Part shown: one piece after another, positions 1,962-12,502 of the stretch
How the letters are laid out: each line of letters starts with the position of its first letter
Numbering within the stretch: the first letter of the stretch is position 1
Origin: Thermomicrobiaceae bacterium
Lineage (GTDB): Bacteria > Chloroflexota > Chloroflexia > Thermomicrobiales > Thermomicrobiaceae
Assembly (NCBI GenBank): GCA_007123655.1
Contig: SKKR01000181.1
Span: 1 to 12,502, forward strand
Direction of reading: 5' to 3'
Length of the DNA: 12,502 nucleotides
The notes under the pieces: generated by a model
What the model saw: only the letters and a program-made list of their open reading frames with translations
What the model was told of the DNA's origin: nothing
Database searches by the model: none
Translations under genes and position numbers: made by a program

Positions 1962-2276
1962 CTACTCGGGCCCAGGTACTTCGCGCGACCACTGTAACGC
2001 GGCAATCATGCGGGGGAATCCGATAGTGGTCAGGCTGAGAAGAATCGCGTGCTCGACCTCTTGCCGGCTCAATCCCGCGTCAAAGGCCTTTCGCACGTGT
2101 GAACGCACTCCGCCTTCAGACTCTGCTCCAACTGCGATTCCCAGCTTCACCAGGCAGCGGGATCGCTCATCGAGTGGACCGGCAGCATGGATAGCTTCCC
2201 CCAGCCGGGAATAGGCATCAGTAACGGACTCGAAATCGTCTACGAACGACTCGTAAATCTCTGGCAGGCGTTTCAT
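1962..2276 (-). CDS. Carboxymuconolactone decarboxylase-like protein lacking the Cys pair
   Basis: This 104-aa protein has the all-helical AhpD/CMD fold: an N-terminal helix (PEIYESFVDDFESV), then DERSRCLVKLGIAVGAESEGGVRSHVRKAFDAGLSRQEVEHAILLS in short conserved blocks, and a C-terminal TTIGFPRMIAALQW helix. In redox-active AhpD relatives a C-x2-C-x3-H motif occupies the region of GAESEGGVRSH; here both Cys are replaced (Ser and Gly) and only the His remains. A peroxidase or thiol-redox role is therefore unlikely. To my knowledge a Cys-less branch of the family with the TTIGFP ending exists, without a defined reaction. Start ATG 2276 is preceded by GGAGAG. It is the last gene of the operon, 38 bases after a small membrane protein, so an accessory role for the respiratory enzyme is possible. 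Confidence 0.82.
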   Translation of the reverse strand: MKRLPEIYESFVDDFESVTDAYSRLGEAIHAAGPLDERSRCLVKLGIAVGAESEGGVRSHVRKAFDAGLSRQEVEHAILLSLTTIGFPRMIAALQWSREVPGPE

Positions 2277-2314
2277 GACATCTCTCCAATCGAGTTATGG
2301 CGCATGAGTACAAG

Positions 2315-2548
2315 CTAGGTCTTTTCACGTGCGACGATCCACAACCACTGATTCAGGACGAGGGCAATGAGGCTCACCAGCAATATCGACGCCGCCCATC
2401 CAGCGACTGTTCCTAACAAGGACGCCACCAATGCGTACGTGGAGGCTGTCAGGAGGATAAGAAACGGAGTCAAGAACGCAAGCAACAGCAGCTTGGCACC
2501 GATCGAGGCAAGCATCCGCAAAACGGCCTTGGAATCGATCTCCGGCAT
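2315..2548 (-). CDS. Small two-helix membrane protein, unknown function
   Basis: This is a 77-aa protein with a short N-terminal cytoplasmic stretch (MPEIDSKAVLRML) and two closely spaced hydrophobic segments, about residues 17-40 and 46-70, ending in a charged tail (REKT). I do not recognise a family. ATG 2548 has an excellent Shine-Dalgarno (GGAAAGGAG) a few bases upstream, which together with the clean frame supports a real gene. It lies 66 bases after the large iron-sulfur protein and 38 bases before the CMD-like gene, all on the same strand. It may be an assembly or anchor factor of the respiratory complex (inference from position). Confidence 0.7.
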   Translation of the reverse strand: MPEIDSKAVLRMLASIGAKLLLLAFLTPFLILLTASTYALVASLLGTVAGWAASILLVSLIALVLNQWLWIVAREKT

Positions 2549-2614
2549 GACGTTCTCCTTTCCGAAGCACGCCAGCCACCCAACACAATTGATTACTGCC
2601 GGTTGCGGAACTGC

Positions 2615-4195
2615 TCAACCAGAGATCCCCCGGCAATTAGTGCAGAACCGGCTGATAACGTTGAGCGTTGCCGCGTGTTCCGCTCCCAGTAGTTCCGCAA
2701 TCCGACCCATCATCTTGTCCGTTGAAATCGGCTTGCCGCATCGCTCGCAGAGGCTGACGGTATCGTGATGAAGGGTTGTCCGGCCCTCCACAAGCAGAGC
2801 AAGGTCTGTCGTTCGGTCGACATGCAGGACATCGCTCTCCGGACACGCCGGCAGGCACTGCTCACAGATCACGCATCGTCGTGCATCGAAGGTAAGTGTT
2901 GTCCCGGCAGCGTCGTCGCTGAAGATCTGCAATGCGTCCGCCGGGCAGGCGTCAGCACACGAACCACATAACGTGCATCCGTCAGTGGCCCGGACGCTGG
3001 CAAATGGAGATGCCGGATGCGTAATCGACCAATCAAGGCCGGCGCCATCTGCAGCTGCGACATCGACGACCACGTCCATCCGTGCGTCGTACCGAAAGGC
3101 GCTGTCTGGCTCGTCTTCGAACGCGTAGCCGGCAAATGCGATTTCGTCCGCCAGAAATGCCCGCAATCCAGCCTCCGACGTCGGTGCCAACTGCACCGCC
3201 TCCGGCATTTCCCATGTTTCTCGCAGCAACGCCTGGCAATAGCCGACTCGCTGGCGCATCTGATCAATCTTCCCGGAACGGCAGTTATCAATGCAGGGAA
3301 CAAGGCCAACCGCGCCGGCACCGAGTCGTAACGGCGCCAGAAGCCATTGAACGGTCAACATCCCGAGGCACGGCACTTCCACCGGCAACCAGCCGGGAGA
3401 GAGGTCGAAATCCCTGGCAGCGAGATTCCGCATCGTGTTTGGGCAAACGAACAGGATTCCCCGCGCATCCGGTCCGCCCGTGTCCTCGTCGAGCAAGCAC
3501 GTCACCTGCTCGTCTATCTCCGCTGGCATCGCTGTCGGAAAATTGATCGCCTCGTTCGGGCAAGCAGACAAGCAAATCCCACAACTGGTGCAGTCCTTCT
3601 TCCGGAGTCGCACCTGTCCATCTACGATTCGGAGCGCATTGTGCGGGCATCCATCGACGCACTCACGGCAACCCTTCGATGCCCGGCAGCGATCACGGCG
3701 GACGGTCGGGGCGGGCCGATACTCCAGTTCCGGAAGAGAAAAGAGTGATTCAAGTCCGCCGCTCGACGGACGTTCCGGCCGCAGGTTCTGTTGGCGGCTC
3801 CCGCGATACGCGCGAGCTCGCTGGACAACGCCGAGGATGGTCAAGATTGCGTGTGTCAGTCGATCCTCTGGGTCCGGAACTCGACAGCTGAGCGTTCCCA
3901 GCTCAACTGGCCAGACTCCGAACTGATCGATTCCGGCATCACGCGCAGCCTGCTGAAAATCGGCGACGCTTAGTTGCTGACCAGGCAATCCAACGACGAC
4001 GCGGCGGGCGGCCGTGTCGATAACCGCGTCACTGAGCGCACGTGAGTCGGCCTCCAATCCGTCAACAATCTTGATGCGCAATGAAGCGTCGCTATCGGAC
4101 AGGCGTCCGGCAAGCTCTACCGGATCCAGCCGATAGCCACTGGCGCTCAATTGCCTGTCGAGCAGGACCGCGACCGTTCGGTTCCCGTCAGGCAT
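2615..4195 (-). CDS. Multidomain iron-sulfur protein: two 2[4Fe-4S] domains and an MvhD-like segment
   Basis: This 526-aa protein has no signal peptide and is probably cytoplasmic. An N-terminal region without Cys motifs (1-165) is followed by a 2[4Fe-4S] ferredoxin domain (Cys170-x5-Cys176-x2-Cys179-x3-Cys183 and Cys202/205/208/212). Residues about 247-325 resemble the hydrogenase delta / MvhD domain (FVCPNT, VPCLGML, VPCIDNCRSGK; Cys251, 276, 301, 305). A second 2[4Fe-4S] domain follows (Cys407/410/413/417 and 441/444/447/451), then a C-terminal C-x2-C pair of pairs (Cys483/486, 518/521) like a zinc or rubredoxin knuckle. MvhD passes electrons between hydrogenase and heterodisulfide reductase in methanogens, so a soluble electron-transfer role is likely. 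ATG 4195 is chosen because AAGGTGG lies upstream and the start overlaps the TorD stop by 8 bases (ATGCCTGA); GTG 4207 is an alternative. Substrate and partners are unknown. Confidence 0.85.
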   Translation of the reverse strand: MPDGNRTVAVLLDRQLSASGYRLDPVELAGRLSDSDASLRIKIVDGLEADSRALSDAVIDTAARRVVVGLPGQQLSVADFQQAARDAGIDQFGVWPVELGTLSCRVPDPEDRLTHAILTILGVVQRARAYRGSRQQNLRPERPSSGGLESLFSLPELEYRPAPTVRRDRCRASKGCRECVDGCPHNALRIVDGQVRLRKKDCTSCGICLSACPNEAINFPTAMPAEIDEQVTCLLDEDTGGPDARGILFVCPNTMRNLAARDFDLSPGWLPVEVPCLGMLTVQWLLAPLRLGAGAVGLVPCIDNCRSGKIDQMRQRVGYCQALLRETWEMPEAVQLAPTSEAGLRAFLADEIAFAGYAFEDEPDSAFRYDARMDVVVDVAAADGAGLDWSITHPASPFASVRATDGCTLCGSCADACPADALQIFSDDAAGTTLTFDARRCVICEQCLPACPESDVLHVDRTTDLALLVEGRTTLHHDTVSLCERCGKPISTDKMMGRIAELLGAEHAATLNVISRFCTNCRGISG

Positions 4196-4928
4196 CTCTG
4201 GAGCCACCTTCTGGCGCCGGAGTTTGTTCGCAAATCTGAATGATCATATCCAGTAAGTCCCGTTCGTGGTGAATGAACTCCGTGACTGCCCGGGCTGCTC
4301 TGAGGTAAAAGGAGTCCGGAGCTGTCAGCGAAACGTGATGTTCCAGCCCGGGAAGCCACCAGCAGAGATGTTTGCGTAGATGGGCTCGGTTCAGCCGGAG
4401 CGCTCGCAGCGCCTGTCCTGGTTCCGCGTTGTGCCAGCCAGTCGCTTCGGCGTCGCATAAGACGGCCAGATACTCAAGCTGAACCGTGATGTGGTCTGCG
4501 GGCGCTGGTGATTGTGCACCGACACTCAACCCGGCGTTGACATACCGGTTGACCAGATCGCGAGTAATGTCCGCACGATCCTGTTCCTCGCCTGTGCGAT
4601 GCAGTGACTCCTGCAACAGGTTTCCAGGATTCCCGCTTGCTCGAGAAAACGCGGTATTGTACAGATGATGAATACCAGGAATCATTTGATGCGCGATTTC
4701 CTCAACGCCGAGGAGAAACTCCTGCCAGGCAGGAAAGTATGGAAAGCGTGCCGCGATCGGATCGTCAATGATTTCCCGAGACATCGTGACGATGGCATCA
4801 ACCTGCTCAGTCGTTGGAGGCAGGAATGCCATTGCGAGCACGCGATACGCAACGTATCGGGTGCTGGCGAGTTCGAGCATTTGCGCGTGCTCTGATTGAG
4901 ATTCTCGACCCACTAATTGCTGAACCAT
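4188..4928 (-). CDS. TorD/DmsD-family molybdoenzyme chaperone
   Basis: This 246-aa protein is helical throughout and fits the TorD family, which holds the apo-catalytic subunit, binds its Tat signal and assists cofactor insertion before export. The family signature is clear: YNTAFSRA (about 90-97) and, above all, the P-x-DHI-x-V-x-LEYLAVL helix (about 143-157), followed by an H-L-x-WW-x-P region (187-193). ATG 4928 is preferred because GGGGAAGAG lies immediately upstream; TTG 4946, which overlaps the previous stop (TTGA), would add six residues and cannot be excluded. It is coupled to the iron-sulfur protein downstream. Its most likely client is the Tat-exported molybdopterin subunit at 8758-11319, the only twin-arginine protein in the window. 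Confidence 0.87.
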   Translation of the reverse strand: MVQQLVGRESQSEHAQMLELASTRYVAYRVLAMAFLPPTTEQVDAIVTMSREIIDDPIAARFPYFPAWQEFLLGVEEIAHQMIPGIHHLYNTAFSRASGNPGNLLQESLHRTGEEQDRADITRDLVNRYVNAGLSVGAQSPAPADHITVQLEYLAVLCDAEATGWHNAEPGQALRALRLNRAHLRKHLCWWLPGLEHHVSLTAPDSFYLRAARAVTEFIHHERDLLDMIIQICEQTPAPEGGSRDA

Positions 4929-4942
4929 CTCTTCCCCAGAGG

Positions 4943-5170
4943 TCAAGCTTCGGATCTCCGACTCGGCAAGACTTCGTAGAGTATCCCCGCTATGAACACG
5001 AGCATGACTCCTGCGATGAAGATCAGCGGCGCAAACGGCAGCACGGGATCAGAGTGCTCCGGGCTAGACGGAGGGAATCCCCACGGTGCCGCCAGGAACA
5101 GGAAACTGACGAACTGAATCACGAACCCGATGACTGCGAGTCCCACCGCCAGTGCACCTCGAGATGTCAT
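4943..5170 (-). CDS. Small two-helix membrane protein, unknown function
   Basis: This is a 75-aa protein with two hydrophobic segments, about residues 5-29 and 44-66, joined by a short Pro/Ser loop (APWGFPPSSPEHSDP) and ending in a basic tail (LPSRRSEA). I recognise no family. Its ATG (5170) overlaps the stop of the NrfD-like gene as ATGA, and the chaperone gene starts at or just after its own stop, so translation is coupled on both sides. The position between the quinone-interacting subunit and the chaperone suggests a small accessory subunit of the membrane complex. This is inferred from context only. Confidence 0.75.
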   Translation of the reverse strand: MTSRGALAVGLAVIGFVIQFVSFLFLAAPWGFPPSSPEHSDPVLPFAPLIFIAGVMLVFIAGILYEVLPSRRSEA

Positions 5171-6468
5171 GTGCGTTCTCCTTCCGGGGAATCCTGGCTG
5201 ACTTCCATGATCGGGAATACCTTCATAAAGAGCAGGAACGCGAGGATCCCAAGCCCAACAAGCCCGATGATTAACCCGTATTCGATCAGGCTCGGCGAAT
5301 ACGTTCCCTGTGGGTAGGGCAGAAGTTGGCCGTGCGTCTGCGAAGGAACAACCAGCAGAAATCGCTTCAGAACCGCACCGATCTGCACCAGCAAACCGGC
5401 GGCAACGATGAGGCCGATGCTCCAGCGACCGGTGTATGCCTGCCATATCAGCAGGGCAACAGCCAGCAGCAGCGATCCCACGGTCAACCAGTATTGCCAG
5501 GCAAAGTCACCCCAGAGCATCGCCTCGAAGATAATCTGCTCGTGATGTTCCGCGGCATAAACCGCGGTGATGACCTCGACCGCCATCAGGTAGAGATACA
5601 CCAGCGTGAGAATCATCAGACCCTTGCCCAGGAACTTGAACATGTCCAGCGTGAGCGTTTGTTGTGTGCCGAGCGCTCGCCGGACGAGCGCGACGATCAC
5701 CGCAAGCAATCCAATGCCCGACACTCCGGCGAGTATGACGAACCCTGGCGCCTGAATCGCACTGAACCAGCCCGGCCGACCGACCTGCAGGCCGAAGACG
5801 AAGCCGAGAGTCGAGTGCGCGGTGATCAGCAACGGAACGATCGCGATTGCGAGCCAGAAACTGGCGCGATAGTGTCGCTGCTGTTCCTCCTCAGTATCCT
5901 GGTATCCAGCTGCCCACCAGCGGTGGAACTTCTGTAGGCGGCCTGGCACCTTCGCACAGGCAGCTGCATCCCGCCTGGCATCAAGATAGAAGTACACCAG
6001 ACTTGCGAACAGGTAACCCGCGATCACCAGGGTGAATGTGCCGAAGAACGGTGATTGCGGGCGGGCATACATGGGCAGGTAAAGTAGCCCCCGCAGTGAC
6101 TGGCCGAGATCGGCGATGATGGCAATCGCGGCAAGTATCAGCGAAATGATGGTCAACAGCTCGGCGATGCGCGCGACTGGTTTCAGGTAGTCCCAGTTGA
6201 GTACGCGAATCAGTGCAGCGACGGTGATTCCTGCAAAGCTGACTCCAACGAAGTAGACGACGAACGTGATATAGAGTCCCCAGGTTGCTCCGCCCATAGT
6301 GCCAACGTTGCGCATACCGGTGGCGATCAATCCCTGCTGACTCTCGATCGCGAACGCAACTACTCCAACGACCGTTAGCGCGAGGGCAATAAGAACCAGC
6401 ACGAGCCACTGTCCTGTTACCCGACCAACTCCGTAGGGCAGGCGTTCTGTGCGAGGCGCCGTCGACAT
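5167..6468 (-). CDS. NrfD/PsrC-family membrane subunit (quinone-interacting)
   Basis: This 433-aa protein has about nine or ten hydrophobic helices, from VTGQWLVLVLIALALTVVGV near the N-terminus to LIIGLVGLGILAFLLF near the end. It fits the NrfD/PsrC family, which docks the four-cluster ferredoxin subunit and exchanges electrons with quinones without its own heme. The PLLITAHSTLGFVFGLQ segment matches the family's conserved HS-x-x-GF helix, and the length is typical. An internal soluble loop (about 175-200, KFHRWWAAGYQDTEEEQQRHYR) lies between helices. ATG 6468 starts one base after the stop of the FeS subunit (TGATATG), with GAGGA as Shine-Dalgarno. Together with that subunit and the molybdopterin protein it should form a periplasm-facing quinone oxidoreductase complex; the direction of electron flow cannot be read from sequence. 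Confidence 0.92.
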   Translation of the reverse strand: MSTAPRTERLPYGVGRVTGQWLVLVLIALALTVVGVVAFAIESQQGLIATGMRNVGTMGGATWGLYITFVVYFVGVSFAGITVAALIRVLNWDYLKPVARIAELLTIISLILAAIAIIADLGQSLRGLLYLPMYARPQSPFFGTFTLVIAGYLFASLVYFYLDARRDAAACAKVPGRLQKFHRWWAAGYQDTEEEQQRHYRASFWLAIAIVPLLITAHSTLGFVFGLQVGRPGWFSAIQAPGFVILAGVSGIGLLAVIVALVRRALGTQQTLTLDMFKFLGKGLMILTLVYLYLMAVEVITAVYAAEHHEQIIFEAMLWGDFAWQYWLTVGSLLLAVALLIWQAYTGRWSIGLIVAAGLLVQIGAVLKRFLLVVPSQTHGQLLPYPQGTYSPSLIEYGLIIGLVGLGILAFLLFMKVFPIMEVSQDSPEGERT

Positions 6469-6469
6469 A

Positions 6470-7210
6470 TCAGATCCTCGCTTTCATATCATCGACTGAA
6501 CGCACATCGCCGCTCGGAGCACGACCACCAACATAGTGCACGCGCGGCTGGGCGTCGGTCTCTTCCAGCAACCTGAACGACGACTTCTGGGCCAGGATGC
6601 GGGATACCACACTCTTATCGTCATCGAGATCACCGAAATGGAGCGCATACTGCGGGCACATGTCCACACAGGCCGGAACGAGATTGTTCTCCACCCGGTG
6701 TGTACAGAAGGTGCACTTCTCGATGACACCTTTCTCACGCCCGCCGCCGGCCGTTCGTCGGTCCTCTTCGCCGTAGCGCTCGTCGAGGCGCGGATTGTCC
6801 CACGGCGGCATCGGCCTGTCGTTGCCCTGCATGTCTTCTGGATAGACCCAGTCGTCGCGGTACTGTCCATCGCTGGGGGCCTGCCAGTTGAAGTAGTTGA
6901 CACCGTAGGGGCAGGCCACCTCACAGTAGCGACACCCGATGCAGCGCTGCCAGTCCGTTGCAACGATCCCGTCTTCCCGCTTGAAGCGGGCGCCGACGGG
7001 GCAGACCTTCACACACGGTGCGTTGTCGCAGTGCATGCACGGCCGCGGCATGAACCAGACTTTGGTGTTGGGATACGTATTCTCCTCGAACCGGAACACG
7101 TGCATCCAGAACACACCTTCCGGCGTCTTATTCTCGACTTTGCATGCTTCCAGACATGCCCGGCAGCCGATACAGCGATCCAGATCGATGACCATTCCAT
7201 ATCTCGGCAT
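6470..7210 (-). CDS. Four-cluster ferredoxin subunit (DmsB/PsrB/NrfC type)
   Basis: This 246-aa protein has sixteen Cys in four groups as in DmsB/PsrB electron-transfer subunits: Cys13/16/19/23, 58/61/66/70, 90/93/96/100 and 166/169/181/185, enough for four [4Fe-4S] clusters. The last group has the family's C-x2-C-x11-C-x3-C spacing. It starts MPRYGMVIDLDRCIGC; ATG 7210 has a perfect GGGGGAG five bases upstream, so a longer in-frame extension to 7270 is not needed. No signal peptide is present, so it is probably carried out with the Tat-exported catalytic subunit. A proline- and charge-rich loop (about 110-160) lies between the third and fourth groups. It should pass electrons between the molybdopterin subunit and the NrfD-like membrane subunit. 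Confidence 0.94.
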   Translation of the reverse strand: MPRYGMVIDLDRCIGCRACLEACKVENKTPEGVFWMHVFRFEENTYPNTKVWFMPRPCMHCDNAPCVKVCPVGARFKREDGIVATDWQRCIGCRYCEVACPYGVNYFNWQAPSDGQYRDDWVYPEDMQGNDRPMPPWDNPRLDERYGEEDRRTAGGGREKGVIEKCTFCTHRVENNLVPACVDMCPQYALHFGDLDDDKSVVSRILAQKSSFRLLEETDAQPRVHYVGGRAPSGDVRSVDDMKARI

Positions 7211-7220
7211 CTGCTCCCCC

Positions 7221-8750
7221 TTAATCCTGTTCGTCCAGCGGAACGGCCACGATGTCGGCTTCCGCCCCAATGCCGAGGGTCACCGGGAACGACACGTGGT
7301 GGAATCGATTGCCGACGTGATCGTCGAATACGGCAAGCCCGATGTGATAAGTGCGGCCAGGGACCATCGCGTGATCATCCGGGTTTCCGGTGTCGAGTTC
7401 CCGGCGCATCACGACCACCCAGCGCCCGTCTTCCCACCGGCTGTAGGCCAGAATGTCGCCCCGGCTGCCTTCCGGTTCGCGGAGGACGCGACGGGGGATG
7501 ATGTCACCTTCCTGGAATTCGTGGTCCTCGTCGAACTCGATCGCGTTTTCGCCAGGGATCAGGGGGAAGTCAAGTATGTGTTCTTCAAACTCCTCCTCTG
7601 GAATGGCATAGAAGCCGGTGACATCCGGATCGAACATGTAGTCGAACGGAGGTCCCTGGCTGGAAAAGGCGCTCGAGCCTTCGTCCCCGAACCGGCTCTC
7701 CAGCACATAGATGTCATCTGCGAAGCCGAGTGGCCCGCCGCGGGAGCCGCGCCACATCCACATATCCAGGAACTGACCGCTGTGGATCATGGAATCCAGC
7801 TCGTCTTCGGATTTCACCGCATCCCAGGCGCCTGGTTCGCCGGACTCATCGACGTTTCGCGAGTTCAGCAGGTACTTTGCGATCTCTTCTGCGTCGATCC
7901 CATCGACCCCGAGGTACGGATGAGCGTCGACGTCCTCTTCCGGCACCTCATCAGGCATGTTTACCTGACTGTCGTGGCACCCGACGTAGCAGCCAACGCT
8001 TCCGAAGTTTGCTGATGAACCGTCATGCGCCGGAATGTCGCCGTCCGCGACGTTGATCGCGATTCGATCTTCGAAACTTGCGATCTGATCCTCATCGCGG
8101 TCCGCGTCTGGTTTCGGTTGAGACCAGCGCTCCCACTCTTCTCCGTTGTACCGGAACAGGTCGTGGGTGATTCCAGGTCGTTCCGACTCCCATTCCATAC
8201 GGATGTACATGTACTCATCATCGTACGCGGCCCGAACGTCTACATCGATATGCCCGGCTTTGTACCCCGGTCCAAACTCTCCAGCGAACTCCCGGTTGGC
8301 CAGGCTCTGGCCGAGTTCTCGCACGTCACGTTCGAGACCGCCGTGGCATGCAATGCATCCCCCACTCTGGTAGTGATCAACCGGGGGACCATCGAACCCG
8401 TATACGGTTGTTTGATCATCGATCGCATTACCGTGACATGCGGCGCAAGACGTCCCTGCCTCGACACTTTCACTGCCAGGATGCGCGTCACGGATCATCC
8501 GTTGCCACGATGTCTGTAGCGGATAGGTTGTGATCACGGTTGTACCCTGGATGTCATCCCAGGTGCCGGGAAACTCGAAGAGCTGCGGGGACTCATACGC
8601 CGGATACGGACTTTGAACCGATTCCCCATCACGTTCGTCATCATCGGACGCCAGCACAGCGAATGCGGCGAGCCCAATCACCAGAACGCTTAGAGATAGC
8701 GCTAATGCGATCGTCCTTGGCCTGCGGAGTTGAGGTCTTATTCTAGCCAT
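7221..8750 (-). CDS. Membrane-anchored c-type cytochrome with ethylbenzene-dehydrogenase-type heme domain
   Basis: This is a 509-aa exported protein. Residues 13-34 are a signal or membrane anchor after a basic N-terminus. Two classical heme c sites follow, CAACH (102-106) and CIACH (132-136), and a third, CYVGCH (254-259), has three residues between the Cys. The C-terminal half matches the EB_dh / cytochrome c-552 haem-binding domain: WRGSRGGPLGFADD (333-346), then DGRWVVVMRREL (441-452) and a PGRTYHIGLAVFDDHVGNRFHHVSF strand pair (464-488). EB_dh gamma subunits normally bind one b heme and are about 200 aa; here the domain is joined to a c-type region. ATG 8750 follows AGGGGA and lies seven bases after the catalytic subunit stop, so the two are coupled. 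It is probably a periplasmic electron acceptor or donor for the molybdoenzyme. The protein is very acidic. Confidence 0.88.
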   Translation of the reverse strand: MARIRPQLRRPRTIALALSLSVLVIGLAAFAVLASDDDERDGESVQSPYPAYESPQLFEFPGTWDDIQGTTVITTYPLQTSWQRMIRDAHPGSESVEAGTSCAACHGNAIDDQTTVYGFDGPPVDHYQSGGCIACHGGLERDVRELGQSLANREFAGEFGPGYKAGHIDVDVRAAYDDEYMYIRMEWESERPGITHDLFRYNGEEWERWSQPKPDADRDEDQIASFEDRIAINVADGDIPAHDGSSANFGSVGCYVGCHDSQVNMPDEVPEEDVDAHPYLGVDGIDAEEIAKYLLNSRNVDESGEPGAWDAVKSEDELDSMIHSGQFLDMWMWRGSRGGPLGFADDIYVLESRFGDEGSSAFSSQGPPFDYMFDPDVTGFYAIPEEEFEEHILDFPLIPGENAIEFDEDHEFQEGDIIPRRVLREPEGSRGDILAYSRWEDGRWVVVMRRELDTGNPDDHAMVPGRTYHIGLAVFDDHVGNRFHHVSFPVTLGIGAEADIVAVPLDEQD

Positions 8751-8757
8751 CGTTCCC

Positions 8758-11319
8758 CTACTTCCACACTCTGACTTTGACGTGTGAGAACCAGGCGCCG
8801 CCGATGTCCCAGAAGCCGTCACTGAACAACAGCAGTTGATTCGCGCTTGGCTGATCCGGTTTGTTTACATGGTGGGTAATTGCCGCACTGTCCGGCCGAA
8901 TCGCCTCAGTGGTTCTGACGAAGGTTTGAAGCTGCCGGGTTTCACCGGTGATTGGGTTCTGCGATTCAACCGTGACCTCGTCACCATCCTCGAGATCACG
9001 TTCCTCGGCCGTTCTTGGGTTCAGAAGGACCGGGTTATCCGGCATAATCTCGTCGAGCAACGGGTGACTCTTATTAGTTCGCGTGTTTTTGTGCTCGATC
9101 CGCTTGAAATCGACCAGATAGAGGTCAAATTCCGAATCGGCCTCTTCCATCGGTTGATCTGTCCATGTCGGGTATCCCGAATACCTGCTCCAGAGACTTT
9201 CCGGAACATCCCGCTCTCGCATTTCCTCGCGAAGCCGTTCAAAGGCTTCGACATAGAATGCAGCACGAACGCCATCGAATGGTTCGTCCCAAACCGATAG
9301 ATAAAGCTCCTCAGTTGGTATAGGAGAGGACACAACCCCTGCCCGCTGAATTGTTGCCATGTCGGTACCGATACTTTCCATCCAGTTGGACAGTATCGTC
9401 TGCGTGTCCGGTTTTTCATCCAGTGGCAGCGCCAAATTGTCCTCGAGTCCGATGTTCTGGTTGATCAGGTCGATGAATCCGTCCTCGCCGTAGAGGACGC
9501 CCATCTTGTCACAGAGATCCATGTAGATCTCAGTTTCGCCCTTCGAATCGCCCATCGGTTCCATGAGGGGCTGCCGGACCGTCTGCGCCTGGTGGTAGAG
9601 CGTCCGGACGTTCAATGGCCCTTCCCACTTGTCGAGCGTCCCGCAGGGAAGAACGACATCACCGACGTACTCGGCGGTCGCATTCATTTCTGGGGTGACG
9701 ACTGCGACGAACCCGAATCGGCTCCAGGCTTCCATGACTTTGTCCATCGGCCGCGAGCTCATGATTGGGTTGACGAAATGGACCCAGACCGCCATATCTT
9801 CAGGCTGATACGGGATGTTGTATTCCTCTGGGTTGTTCACGGTGTTTGGGAATTGCAGGTATCCGGACGAGCCCATCGGGAACCACTTGGTACCGCCGAG
9901 ATCGAGCCGATCCGGTTCTTCATTCTCTACCGCATCGAGCCAACCTTGATGCGCCTCGGTTGGATCGCCGACTGCTTTGTTCCAGAAATGCGGCCCGCCG
10001 GCCGCTTCCACCGCGCCCAGTACCATGAACGAAAGCAGAATCGCGCGATTGGTCTGGACTGAACTGTGGAATTTAACTGCTGTGCCGTGCATCCCGAATG
10101 CGACCGGTCGATACGGGACCTCGACGCCGTCGATCATCGTCGTGCTGCCGATCCGCGCCTCCTGGCCGAGCTCCCGGGCGATACGCCGGATTTGCTCGGC
10201 AGGAACGCTAGCGACGCTTGATGCCCACTCGGGCGAATACTGACCAACATGATCCAGCAAGTGCTGAAGCGCGGGCTGGACCGTCTCGTCGTTAACCGAG
10301 AATCGGCCGAACAGCGCGGGCTCAATATCGTCGCTGTAGGAGACCGCTTCTTCTTCCTCCGGATCCCAGACGAGCTCGTCCTCCCCGTCACGAAGAAGCG
10401 AACCGTCTTCCCGCACGAGCGAGGGAGCGTTCGTGTGTTGTCGCAAGAACGGCTCGTCAATGAACCCTTCGTTAAGAAGGACATGCAAGACGGCGAGCCA
10501 GAATGTCATGTCGGTGCCCGGCTTGATCGGAACCCACTCGTCGGCCTGGTTTGCGACCGACCGGGCGTACGGATCGATGGATACAACCTTCATGCCCTTC
10601 TCCCGGGCGTTGGCAACCTCGCGAGGGTAGGTGATCTGACACATGCTGGGTCCGCCGGCCTGCGTCAGGTTCCAGTAGCAGATGAGGTAGTTGCATTGCC
10701 GCAGGTCCGGAAGCATGACACCACGATCCCCCCAGGTTGCGAGTACGGCGTCCTGGTGGGCGCCGCCACAGTCGTTACCCCGGCGCCCATAGGAATACGG
10801 CATTCCGGTCGCGCCCCTGAAGGCGTCGTTGTAAATTGATCCGACTTTGTTGCGTCCAGAAACGTAGGCGGTAAGTCTTGGATCAGTGTCCAACGCCTGC
10901 TGGAACCGCTCGGCGACTAGCTCCAGAGCTTCATCCCAGGAAGCATCGCGCCACTCGCCGGGGACGCCCTTTTCATTAGTGCGAATCTTGGGTGTCGTTA
11001 CGCGAGTGGGGTCGTAGAGTGTGGTGATCTGCGCGACCCCCTTCGGGCAAAGCCGCCCCAGGTTCCGCGGGTGTCGATCGTTGCCCTCCAGCTTCACCAC
11101 GCGACCGTTCACGCGGTGGGCAGTCATTCCACAATCCTGTTTGCCGATCCAGCAGGTCGTCTGGACAGTATCCTCGACGATCTCCTCCTGGCTTTGCACC
11201 GATGAAGAAACGAGGGTGTCAAGTTGCGAGAAGCGGCTGCCGGGCCACTGGCTCGCGAGCAGACCGCCACCGGTAACTGCGGCTGTTCCCTTGAGAAATG
11301 TTCGACGACTGACGGCCAT
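8758..11319 (-). CDS. Tat-exported molybdopterin oxidoreductase, catalytic subunit (DMSO reductase superfamily)
   Basis: This is an 853-aa protein. ATG 11319 has GGGGGAAG upstream and gives a twin-arginine signal at once (SRRTFLKG, residues 4-11). The N-terminal iron-sulfur domain reads Cys56-x2-Gly59-x3-Cys63-x27-Cys91, with CPKG after the last Cys as usual, but Gly replaces the second Cys. Molybdopterin-binding blocks follow: SGRNKVGS (154-161), YGRRGNDCGGAHQD (177-190, Cys184 a candidate metal ligand), VVSIDPYARSVANQADEWVPIKPGTD in two blocks (245-270), and GDVVLPCGTLDKWEG. The C-terminal cofactor-binding domain begins near residue 731 (DLYLVDFKR) and carries HHVNKPDQPSANQLL. Length and layout fit the superfamily; I cannot assign a subfamily or substrate. 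The companions (EB_dh cytochrome, four-cluster ferredoxin, NrfD, TorD) mark it as a periplasmic respiratory enzyme. Confidence 0.93.
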   Translation of the reverse strand: MAVSRRTFLKGTAAVTGGGLLASQWPGSRFSQLDTLVSSSVQSQEEIVEDTVQTTCWIGKQDCGMTAHRVNGRVVKLEGNDRHPRNLGRLCPKGVAQITTLYDPTRVTTPKIRTNEKGVPGEWRDASWDEALELVAERFQQALDTDPRLTAYVSGRNKVGSIYNDAFRGATGMPYSYGRRGNDCGGAHQDAVLATWGDRGVMLPDLRQCNYLICYWNLTQAGGPSMCQITYPREVANAREKGMKVVSIDPYARSVANQADEWVPIKPGTDMTFWLAVLHVLLNEGFIDEPFLRQHTNAPSLVREDGSLLRDGEDELVWDPEEEEAVSYSDDIEPALFGRFSVNDETVQPALQHLLDHVGQYSPEWASSVASVPAEQIRRIARELGQEARIGSTTMIDGVEVPYRPVAFGMHGTAVKFHSSVQTNRAILLSFMVLGAVEAAGGPHFWNKAVGDPTEAHQGWLDAVENEEPDRLDLGGTKWFPMGSSGYLQFPNTVNNPEEYNIPYQPEDMAVWVHFVNPIMSSRPMDKVMEAWSRFGFVAVVTPEMNATAEYVGDVVLPCGTLDKWEGPLNVRTLYHQAQTVRQPLMEPMGDSKGETEIYMDLCDKMGVLYGEDGFIDLINQNIGLEDNLALPLDEKPDTQTILSNWMESIGTDMATIQRAGVVSSPIPTEELYLSVWDEPFDGVRAAFYVEAFERLREEMRERDVPESLWSRYSGYPTWTDQPMEEADSEFDLYLVDFKRIEHKNTRTNKSHPLLDEIMPDNPVLLNPRTAEERDLEDGDEVTVESQNPITGETRQLQTFVRTTEAIRPDSAAITHHVNKPDQPSANQLLLFSDGFWDIGGAWFSHVKVRVWK

Positions 11320-11854: not shown

Positions 11855-12502
11855 ATGGTGAGGGAGCTCTCGCATCCAATCCCGGCGACACCACGCGGTT
11901 TCGTATTTGATGAAGCGCCCTGGCTCGTGTACTGGGAGATTACGCGGGCGTGCAACCTGGTTTGCCGCCACTGCAGGGCGAACGCTCAGTGTAACCACGA
12001 TCCGAACGAGCTCACGTACGACCAAGGCATCGAGTTGCTGCGAGCGATCCGCCGCTTCGGCGAGCCACCGCCACACCTGGTTATCACTGGTGGAGATCCC
12101 CTCAAACGGCACGATCTGTTTGAGCTGATCGCTGAAGCGACGGGGCTACGGATACCGGTGTCATTGGCGCCGAGCGTGACGGATCTGATGGATGATACGC
12201 TGTTCCCTATCCTCCGTGGATTGGGGGTCAGTGCGATTTCGCTGAGCCTGGACGGCGTTACAGCCGACAATCAGGACGGCATCCGTGGCGTTCCAGGCTG
12301 TTTCGATCGAACGCTTGAAATGGCCAGGGCGGCCGTCGCATGTGGACTGGTGGTCCAGATCAACACGCTTGTCACGGCGGAAACGCGTGCAGACCTGGAG
12401 CAGATGTCGCGGCTTATGTCCGACCTGGGAATCACCCGATGGAGCCTCTTCTTTCTGATTCAGGTAGGACGCGGCAGTTTGCTCCCACAGTTATCGCCGG
12501 AT
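11855..12502 (+). CDS. Radical SAM protein, TIGR04053 (BA_1875)-like, partial at 3' end
   Basis: The first 216 codons are visible and the frame is open to the end of the window. An in-frame TAG at 11846-11848 fixes the start region; ATG 11855 has AGGA directly before it and GAAGG (11841-11845) nine bases upstream, with GTG 11858 as the next choice. The product begins with a short leader, then LVYWEITRACNLVCRHCRA with the radical SAM triad Cys33-x3-Cys37-x2-Cys40, which binds the SAM-cleaving [4Fe-4S] cluster. ITGGDPLKR (about 76-84) supplies the GGD-type SAM-binding motif, followed by SLAPS and ISLSLDG strands and INTLVT. This pattern, especially YWE-x-TRAC and GGDPLKR, resembles the TIGR04053 radical SAM/SPASM family, related in sequence to heme-biosynthesis AhbD/NirJ enzymes. 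The SPASM end is outside the window and the reaction is unknown. It is divergent from the molybdoenzyme operon. Confidence 0.85.
   Translation, partial: MVRELSHPIPATPRGFVFDEAPWLVYWEITRACNLVCRHCRANAQCNHDPNELTYDQGIELLRAIRRFGEPPPHLVITGGDPLKRHDLFELIAEATGLRIPVSLAPSVTDLMDDTLFPILRGLGVSAISLSLDGVTADNQDGIRGVPGCFDRTLEMARAAVACGLVVQINTLVTAETRADLEQMSRLMSDLGITRWSLFFLIQVGRGSLLPQLSPD

Follow-up and report, generated by a model that had tools for sequence, protein, structure and literature searches.

A conserved molybdoenzyme operon of a Chloroflexota bacterium with a putatively altered active site and an added three-haem cytochrome

Known systems and the new locus

Molybdoenzyme complexes built around an NrfD-type membrane subunit can operate in both directions; in Arx and Psr, a catalytic subunit exported by the twin-arginine translocation (Tat) pathway is connected through its FS0 iron-sulfur cluster, a four-cluster subunit and NrfD to quinone. 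Enzymes of the type II DMSO reductase family use an Asp as the Mo ligand. The gene order in two operons that we take to be Arx-type (Sulfuricella pSCD and Cereibacter ORIO), judging from order and neighbours and not from the gene names of the records, is XSR-B'-A-B-NrfD-TorD. Here we describe a stretch of 12,502 nucleotides from a Thermomicrobiaceae bacterium (the window; G000:C148 of a 2.93-Mb genome in 594 contigs, 70.6% complete), in which nine genes on the minus strand (11319-1962) encode a molybdoenzyme, its predicted electron-transfer partners and accessory proteins.

The locus belongs among the complex iron-sulfur molybdoenzymes: it is genuine and conserved, and its branch has added a component of its own. 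Its sequence suggests that a presumably soda-lake Chloroflexota bacterium has a membrane-anchored molybdenum enzyme from a branch of the family in which the active site is altered and a three-haem cytochrome has been added. We tentatively favour, at somewhat less than even confidence, the reading that it is an Arx-like, arsenic-derived respiratory complex whose pocket was altered, and which acquired a further electron exit, within the window's branch; the substrate is a prediction. The genes are, in the order of transcription:

8758-11319, minus strand: catalytic subunit with molybdenum-bis(pyranopterin guanine dinucleotide) cofactor, 853 residues, with a Tat signal, an FS0 motif C-x2-G-x3-C-x27-C and a Cys Mo ligand
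7221-8750, minus strand: EB_dh-domain cytochrome c, 509 residues, with an N-terminal hydrophobic anchor, two CxxCH motifs and one CxxxCH motif
6470-7210, minus strand: electron-transfer subunit of the ArrB/DsrO/PsrB type, 16 Cys in four 4Fe-4S motifs
5167-6468, minus strand: NrfD/PsrC-type integral membrane quinone-site subunit, 433 residues
4943-5170, minus strand: small membrane protein, 75 residues, conserved between NrfD and TorD
4188-4946, minus strand: maturation chaperone of the TorD/DMSO-reductase type
2615-4207, minus strand: cytoplasmic FlpD/MvhD-type protein with four 4Fe-4S motifs; alternative ATG start at 4195
2315-2548, minus strand: small membrane protein, 77 residues
1962-2276, minus strand: CMD-fold protein without a CxxC motif

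An earlier, sequence-only reading had described nine mostly coupled genes on one strand, and both its positions and this layout hold. The gaps between the first seven genes are 7, 10, 1, -4, -4 and -8 bases, while 66 and 38 bases precede the last two genes, for the 77-residue protein and the CMD protein. Pfam matches cover the Mo subunit, the EB_dh protein, the 4Fe-4S ferredoxins, NrfD, the chaperone (Nitrate_red_del), the FlpD-type protein (FlpD/MvhD plus Fer4) and the CMD protein, and the gene names agree with Pfam and NCBIfam. The Tat signal match of the Mo subunit, at 22.1 bits, lies just below the cut-off of 22.7. The 75-residue and 77-residue open reading frames were judged to be membrane proteins by eye; neither the 75-residue frame, scanned in a longer frame, nor the 77-residue frame had a Pfam match. 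The CMD protein, earlier called Cys-less, has one cysteine, although it does lack a CxxC motif.

The catalytic subunit and its family

The closest named relative is a Thermomicrobiaceae metagenome-assembled genome (MAG), isolate CSSed165cm_354, which we take to belong to a soda-lake sediment series of Chloroflexota; its Mo subunit is 95% identical, and a genome with the same 95% match falls in the window's own genus. A protein search returned 1419 matches, the best 120 of which comprise 28 at 52-91% identity and 92 at 40-46%. Scanning species genomes gave 96 confirmed relatives, and the DNA around the best 80 of these (up to 10 kb on either side) forms the set of loci compared below. Their titles include Chloroflexi, Actinobacteria/Acidimicrobiia, Armatimonadota, Rokubacteria, Methylomirabilis, Nitrospinae, haloarchaea and other archaea, among more.

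The trees bear out the claim that the catalytic subunit groups with none of the characterised reference enzymes. The subunit falls in a core clade (support 100/99) separate from the ArxA, ArrA, PhsA, SoeA-like and TtrA-like reference rows; Arx and Arr form a distinct clade, likewise at 100/99, and a second tree agrees. The wider family is seemingly uncharacterised. It has a peculiar FS0 motif: Gly replaces the second Cys in all 121 family members aligned, and a further comparison shows Gly at this position in 20/20 core rows vs Cys in 14/14 others. The missing Cys provides a simple marker of the family in its entirety, and the cluster is predicted to be unusual. The Mo ligand is Cys in 120 of the 121 rows and aligns with Cys residues of ArrA and PsrA that we take to be their Mo ligands. 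Because of this Cys, type II membership is ruled out despite the EB_dh partner.

An alternative is that the family, or only the window's branch, handles a sulfur compound: it would then resemble Psr, Phs or Soe, for instance as an exported oxidoreductase acting on sulfite, thiosulfate or polysulfide. The common fold is uninformative on substrate. The NCBIfam PhsA model gives the Mo subunit 239 bits, far under its cut-off of 694 (the TtrA model gives 32 against 1750); PhsA lies outside the core clade, as does the single SoeA-like row, whose identity we assume from its place beside xsc; and some relatives adjoin ArrX/AioX-like sensors and ars genes. We consider a sulfur substrate unlikely.

A conserved six-gene core

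The conserved core consists of six genes, encoding the Mo subunit, the four-cluster ferredoxin, NrfD, the 75-residue membrane protein, TorD and the FlpD-type ferredoxin. In 45 of the 80 loci the DNA extends 5.5 kb or more beyond the Mo gene on its downstream side, and 35 of these keep the order FeS-NrfD-small membrane protein-TorD-FlpD. Eight have the first four of these but apparently no FlpD gene; they were first counted as having FlpD before NrfD, the model in such loci having matched the ferredoxin. Two of the 45 are without NrfD. A protein with two CxxCH motifs occupies the NrfD position in L016, L019 and L020, and nothing does so in L037 and L076. Since NrfD is replaced or absent in some loci, the electron outlet differs between lineages of the family.

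The EB_dh and 77-residue proteins are outside the conserved set. The 77-residue protein had no match among the 80 loci at 1e-4, and the CMD protein is a patchy neighbour, with relatives in six (L019, L040, L063, L072, L074 and L083), one of them about 9 kb off. The sequence-only reading had called the combination a hybrid and proposed a search for neighbourhoods holding all nine genes. Its parts do form a real operon, and the core recurs in order; it is not an even mixture, since the EB_dh protein is an addition to a six-gene core and, like the 77-residue protein, is confined to close kin.

Two loci carry a TtrA-like molybdoenzyme operon in tandem with the core (L013 7055-10624, an Armatimonadota MAG; L050 9993-13151, a Nitrososphaeria MAG). 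An FmdE-type protein shares the stretch with the core in four others, recognised by a Pfam match in L030 and by clustering in L056, L062 and L081.

The EB_dh cytochrome and the window's branch

The EB_dh protein (PF09459, E 6e-43) contains three haem motifs, CAACH, CIACH and CYVGCH, and its predicted structure is most like EbdC and NxrC. It was considered as a part of the core and rejected, as it was seen adjoining the core in just two places, the window and its near relative L006. For two protein pairs, P0002/P0127 and P0016/P0132, whose contigs agree in length (6955 and 4273 bases, respectively) and in source, a Mo gene and an EB_dh gene probably share one contig. Other relatives of it lie on fetched stretches without a core gene: L111, L112 and L113, in core-bearing genomes, and L114 (G037), with L111's gene running off its contig. 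Between the window and L006 the Mo subunits are 95% identical but the first 89 EB_dh residues only 63% (from 8750 in the window; 2777-3046 in L006), hinting at recombination or relaxed constraint.

The window's branch comprises 29 of the 121 aligned rows, the remaining 92 being the broad group. A pocket histidine kept in 91 of those 92 is missing in all 29 branch rows, and therefore the substrate may have changed; a C-S-D motif is likewise absent from all 29. With one misaligned row dropped, the branch (29 rows) and the broad group (91 rows) show fixed differences at 39 positions, 11 of them within residues 153-224, around the Mo ligand. The stem of the branch measures 0.68 changes per column.

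These observations, together with the resemblance of the EB_dh model to EbdC and NxrC, favour an alternative in which the branch has moved from arsenic to another substrate and passes its electrons mainly to cytochrome c through the EB_dh protein, as in Ebd, Ddh and Nxr. However, because the window retains NrfD and all core genes, the quinone route seems to be kept; pocket changes by themselves are no proof of a new substrate; and other branches with arsenic neighbours meet the window's branch at an unresolved fork in the tree. On balance we regard this alternative as rather unlikely.

Further genomes of the branch were sought class by class. In the window's class, five of 158 genomes had a match at 1e-100, two of them of the branch, and in the class of L007's genome two of 29 matched, one of the branch. 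In the class of G517, 10 of 345 and 17 of 395 genomes matched; none of the matches listed belongs to the branch, because they are 41-46% identical.

Arsenic-related genes near the core

The sequence-only reading had termed the substrate unknown. It is still unproven, but there are clues, as some relatives outside the window's branch adjoin arsenic sensors or resistance genes. A PhnD-like protein of the ArrX/AioX type (X) is encoded in 21 of the 80 loci and an ACR3-like gene in four, all outside the branch. Six loci have an ArsR-like gene, one of them weak, and one locus has ArsD-ArsA: in Natronorubrum bangense the core is flanked by ArsR on one side and ArsD-ArsA on the other, and a nearby phosphatase has below-cut-off matches to arsenate reductase models. 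Across 165 Mb of 50 core-bearing genomes, 20 ACR3 genes exceed the cut-off; two fall within the 0.89 Mb of loci vs 0.11 expected (P = 0.005), or three vs 0.15 when weaker matches are counted (P = 0.0005).

A profile of 18 X sequences scores 304 bits against ArrX, 200 against AioX, 130 against PtxB and 118 against the best phosphonate-binding chain, and it also matches the X protein (ArxX) of the two Arx-type operons. One cysteine is kept in 20 of the 21 X members, the other being a fragment; AioX has a binding cysteine. In the class of G517, X was found in 11 of 345 genomes: seven within 3 kb of a core Mo gene, two beside a TtrA-like operon and two at contig ends, a count biased to the core by a profile built from core neighbours. 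Five of the seven are on DNA already among the 80 loci (L023, L040, L071, L082 and L084), which leaves L105 and L136 as the only additions. The probability calculated for X adjoining the core by chance (3.6e-15) was not used, being circular for the same reason.

That ArrX, a name tied to arsenate respiration, is the best sensor match raises the alternative that the enzyme reduces its substrate, which could be arsenate, instead of oxidising it, and the reversibility of NrfD complexes would allow this. The Arx-like gene order, the match of the X profile to ArxX and the added EB_dh cytochrome, which fits an electron outlet, point the other way but are not decisive. We think reduction quite improbable.

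Several observations weigh against an arsenic-derived complex. Most of the 80 loci have neither X nor an ars gene, though the shortness of many contigs accounts for part of this. The window itself yielded no recognised X sensor or arsenic gene. In its 70.6%-complete genome, X was not found by a search that had no positive control, and there was no ACR3, although G109, a genome of the same genus, does contain one. Among the other branch members only L007 has readable upstream DNA, and there it encodes a kinase and a response regulator but no X. A matching set of X sensor, kinase and response regulator adjoins a TtrA-like operon rather than the core in L131 and L132; X is therefore not a marker of this enzyme alone, and the TtrA-like enzyme may, given these neighbours, also act on arsenic. 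The JGI name SoeA is attached to 8 of the 28 nearest proteins, and the loss of the pocket histidine belongs here too. For the whole family, arsenic has the best support as substrate; for the window's branch it is less sure, because no X or ars gene was seen in the window and the pocket has changed.

Predicted function

In the Arx-like reading, the Mo subunit would be matured by TorD, exported by the Tat pathway and trade electrons with its substrate outside the membrane. Electrons could then pass from the three-cysteine FS0 cluster to the four-cluster subunit and on by way of NrfD to (mena)quinone. As core parts, the small membrane protein and the FlpD-type ferredoxin perhaps serve assembly or cytoplasmic electron transfer, replacing ArxB'. 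The core family's substrate would most likely be arsenic, probably in arsenite oxidation. In the window's branch, the pocket appears to have been altered and the gene for an EB_dh cytochrome, with three haems and a membrane anchor, to have been placed behind the Mo gene. This cytochrome may give electrons an additional way out (or in) by c-type cytochromes; its N-terminal anchor would place it on the same side of the membrane, and its partner could be a cytochrome c that is either soluble or membrane-bound. The genes present and their order, the clade, the absent FS0 Cys and pocket His, the haem motifs and the relatives' arsenic neighbours are read directly from sequence; from them we infer the substrate, the electron direction and the double exit.

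A broader proposal, which we hold as possible but doubtful, is that the core represents a further arsenic-respiring lineage beside Aio, Arx and Arr, in Chloroflexota, Actinomycetota, Armatimonadota, Methylomirabilota, haloarchaea and other archaea. It would be marked by a three-Cys FS0 site and swappable outlets (NrfD, a two-haem cytochrome, or NrfD plus the three-haem EB_dh protein), with the window's branch having a pocket remodelled for a new substrate and being able to feed cytochrome c as well as quinone. Should the core prove to be an arsenic enzyme, arsenic respiration would occur in a broad lineage, including marine SAR202 MAGs (L079), that surveys of Aio, Arx and Arr genes would probably miss. 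The window's branch would then show how such a complex acquires a second electron outlet and an altered pocket, in related groups open to comparison by expression.

Neighbouring genes

Convergent with the end of the operon, a plus-strand gene (1007-1711) encodes an Asp/Glu/Met-rich protein matched by Pfam to DUF305; it had no match among the 80 loci at 1e-4. Upstream of the Mo gene and divergent from it is a radical SAM/SPASM gene of the TIGR04053 family (11855-12502, plus strand), which runs off the window; the part present scores 239 bits against a cut-off of 395. Elsewhere in the window's genome, G000:C467 and G000:C398 hold a pair of adjoining further NrfD genes and a Mo subunit resembling formate dehydrogenase; our guess is that the adjacent NrfD pair belongs to an alternative complex III.

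Comparison with known systems

The Arx system (arxXSR, arxB'ABCD) shares with the window a Tat-type Mo subunit, a four-cluster subunit, NrfD, TorD and an extra ferredoxin; it also shares the X sensor, though in this case with 21 of the 80 relatives. The core gene order resembles that of the two Arx-type operons, the window and 35 of the 45 loci carrying FeS, NrfD, TorD and the extra ferredoxin. Unlike Arx, the window's catalytic subunit belongs to another clade and the core family has Gly for the second FS0 Cys. Whereas Arx has B' at the start of the operon, the core family has an FlpD-type ferredoxin at the end and a small membrane protein beyond the Arx set, to which the window's branch adds the EB_dh cytochrome.

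The TtrA-like operons (L131, L132, L013 and L050) likewise have a Mo subunit, ferredoxin and NrfD, and those of L131 and L132 also have an FlpD-like protein and the same X sensor adjoining, but they differ from the core in their separate clade (100/100; three of four rows) and normal FS0 cysteines. Psr and Phs share the Cys Mo ligand, and 2vpw is the top structural neighbour of the Mo subunit, tied with others; they differ in that the subunit scores below the PhsA cut-off, in lying outside the core clade and in their FS0 motif. Ebd, Ddh and Nxr, of type II, share the EB_dh domain, yet the window has Cys rather than Asp as Mo ligand, possesses NrfD, and bears c-type haem motifs on its gamma-like EB_dh protein, unlike theirs. 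The pairing of EB_dh with NrfD, as earlier proposed, sets this locus apart from the systems considered here, namely Arx, Phs, Soe-like and type II.
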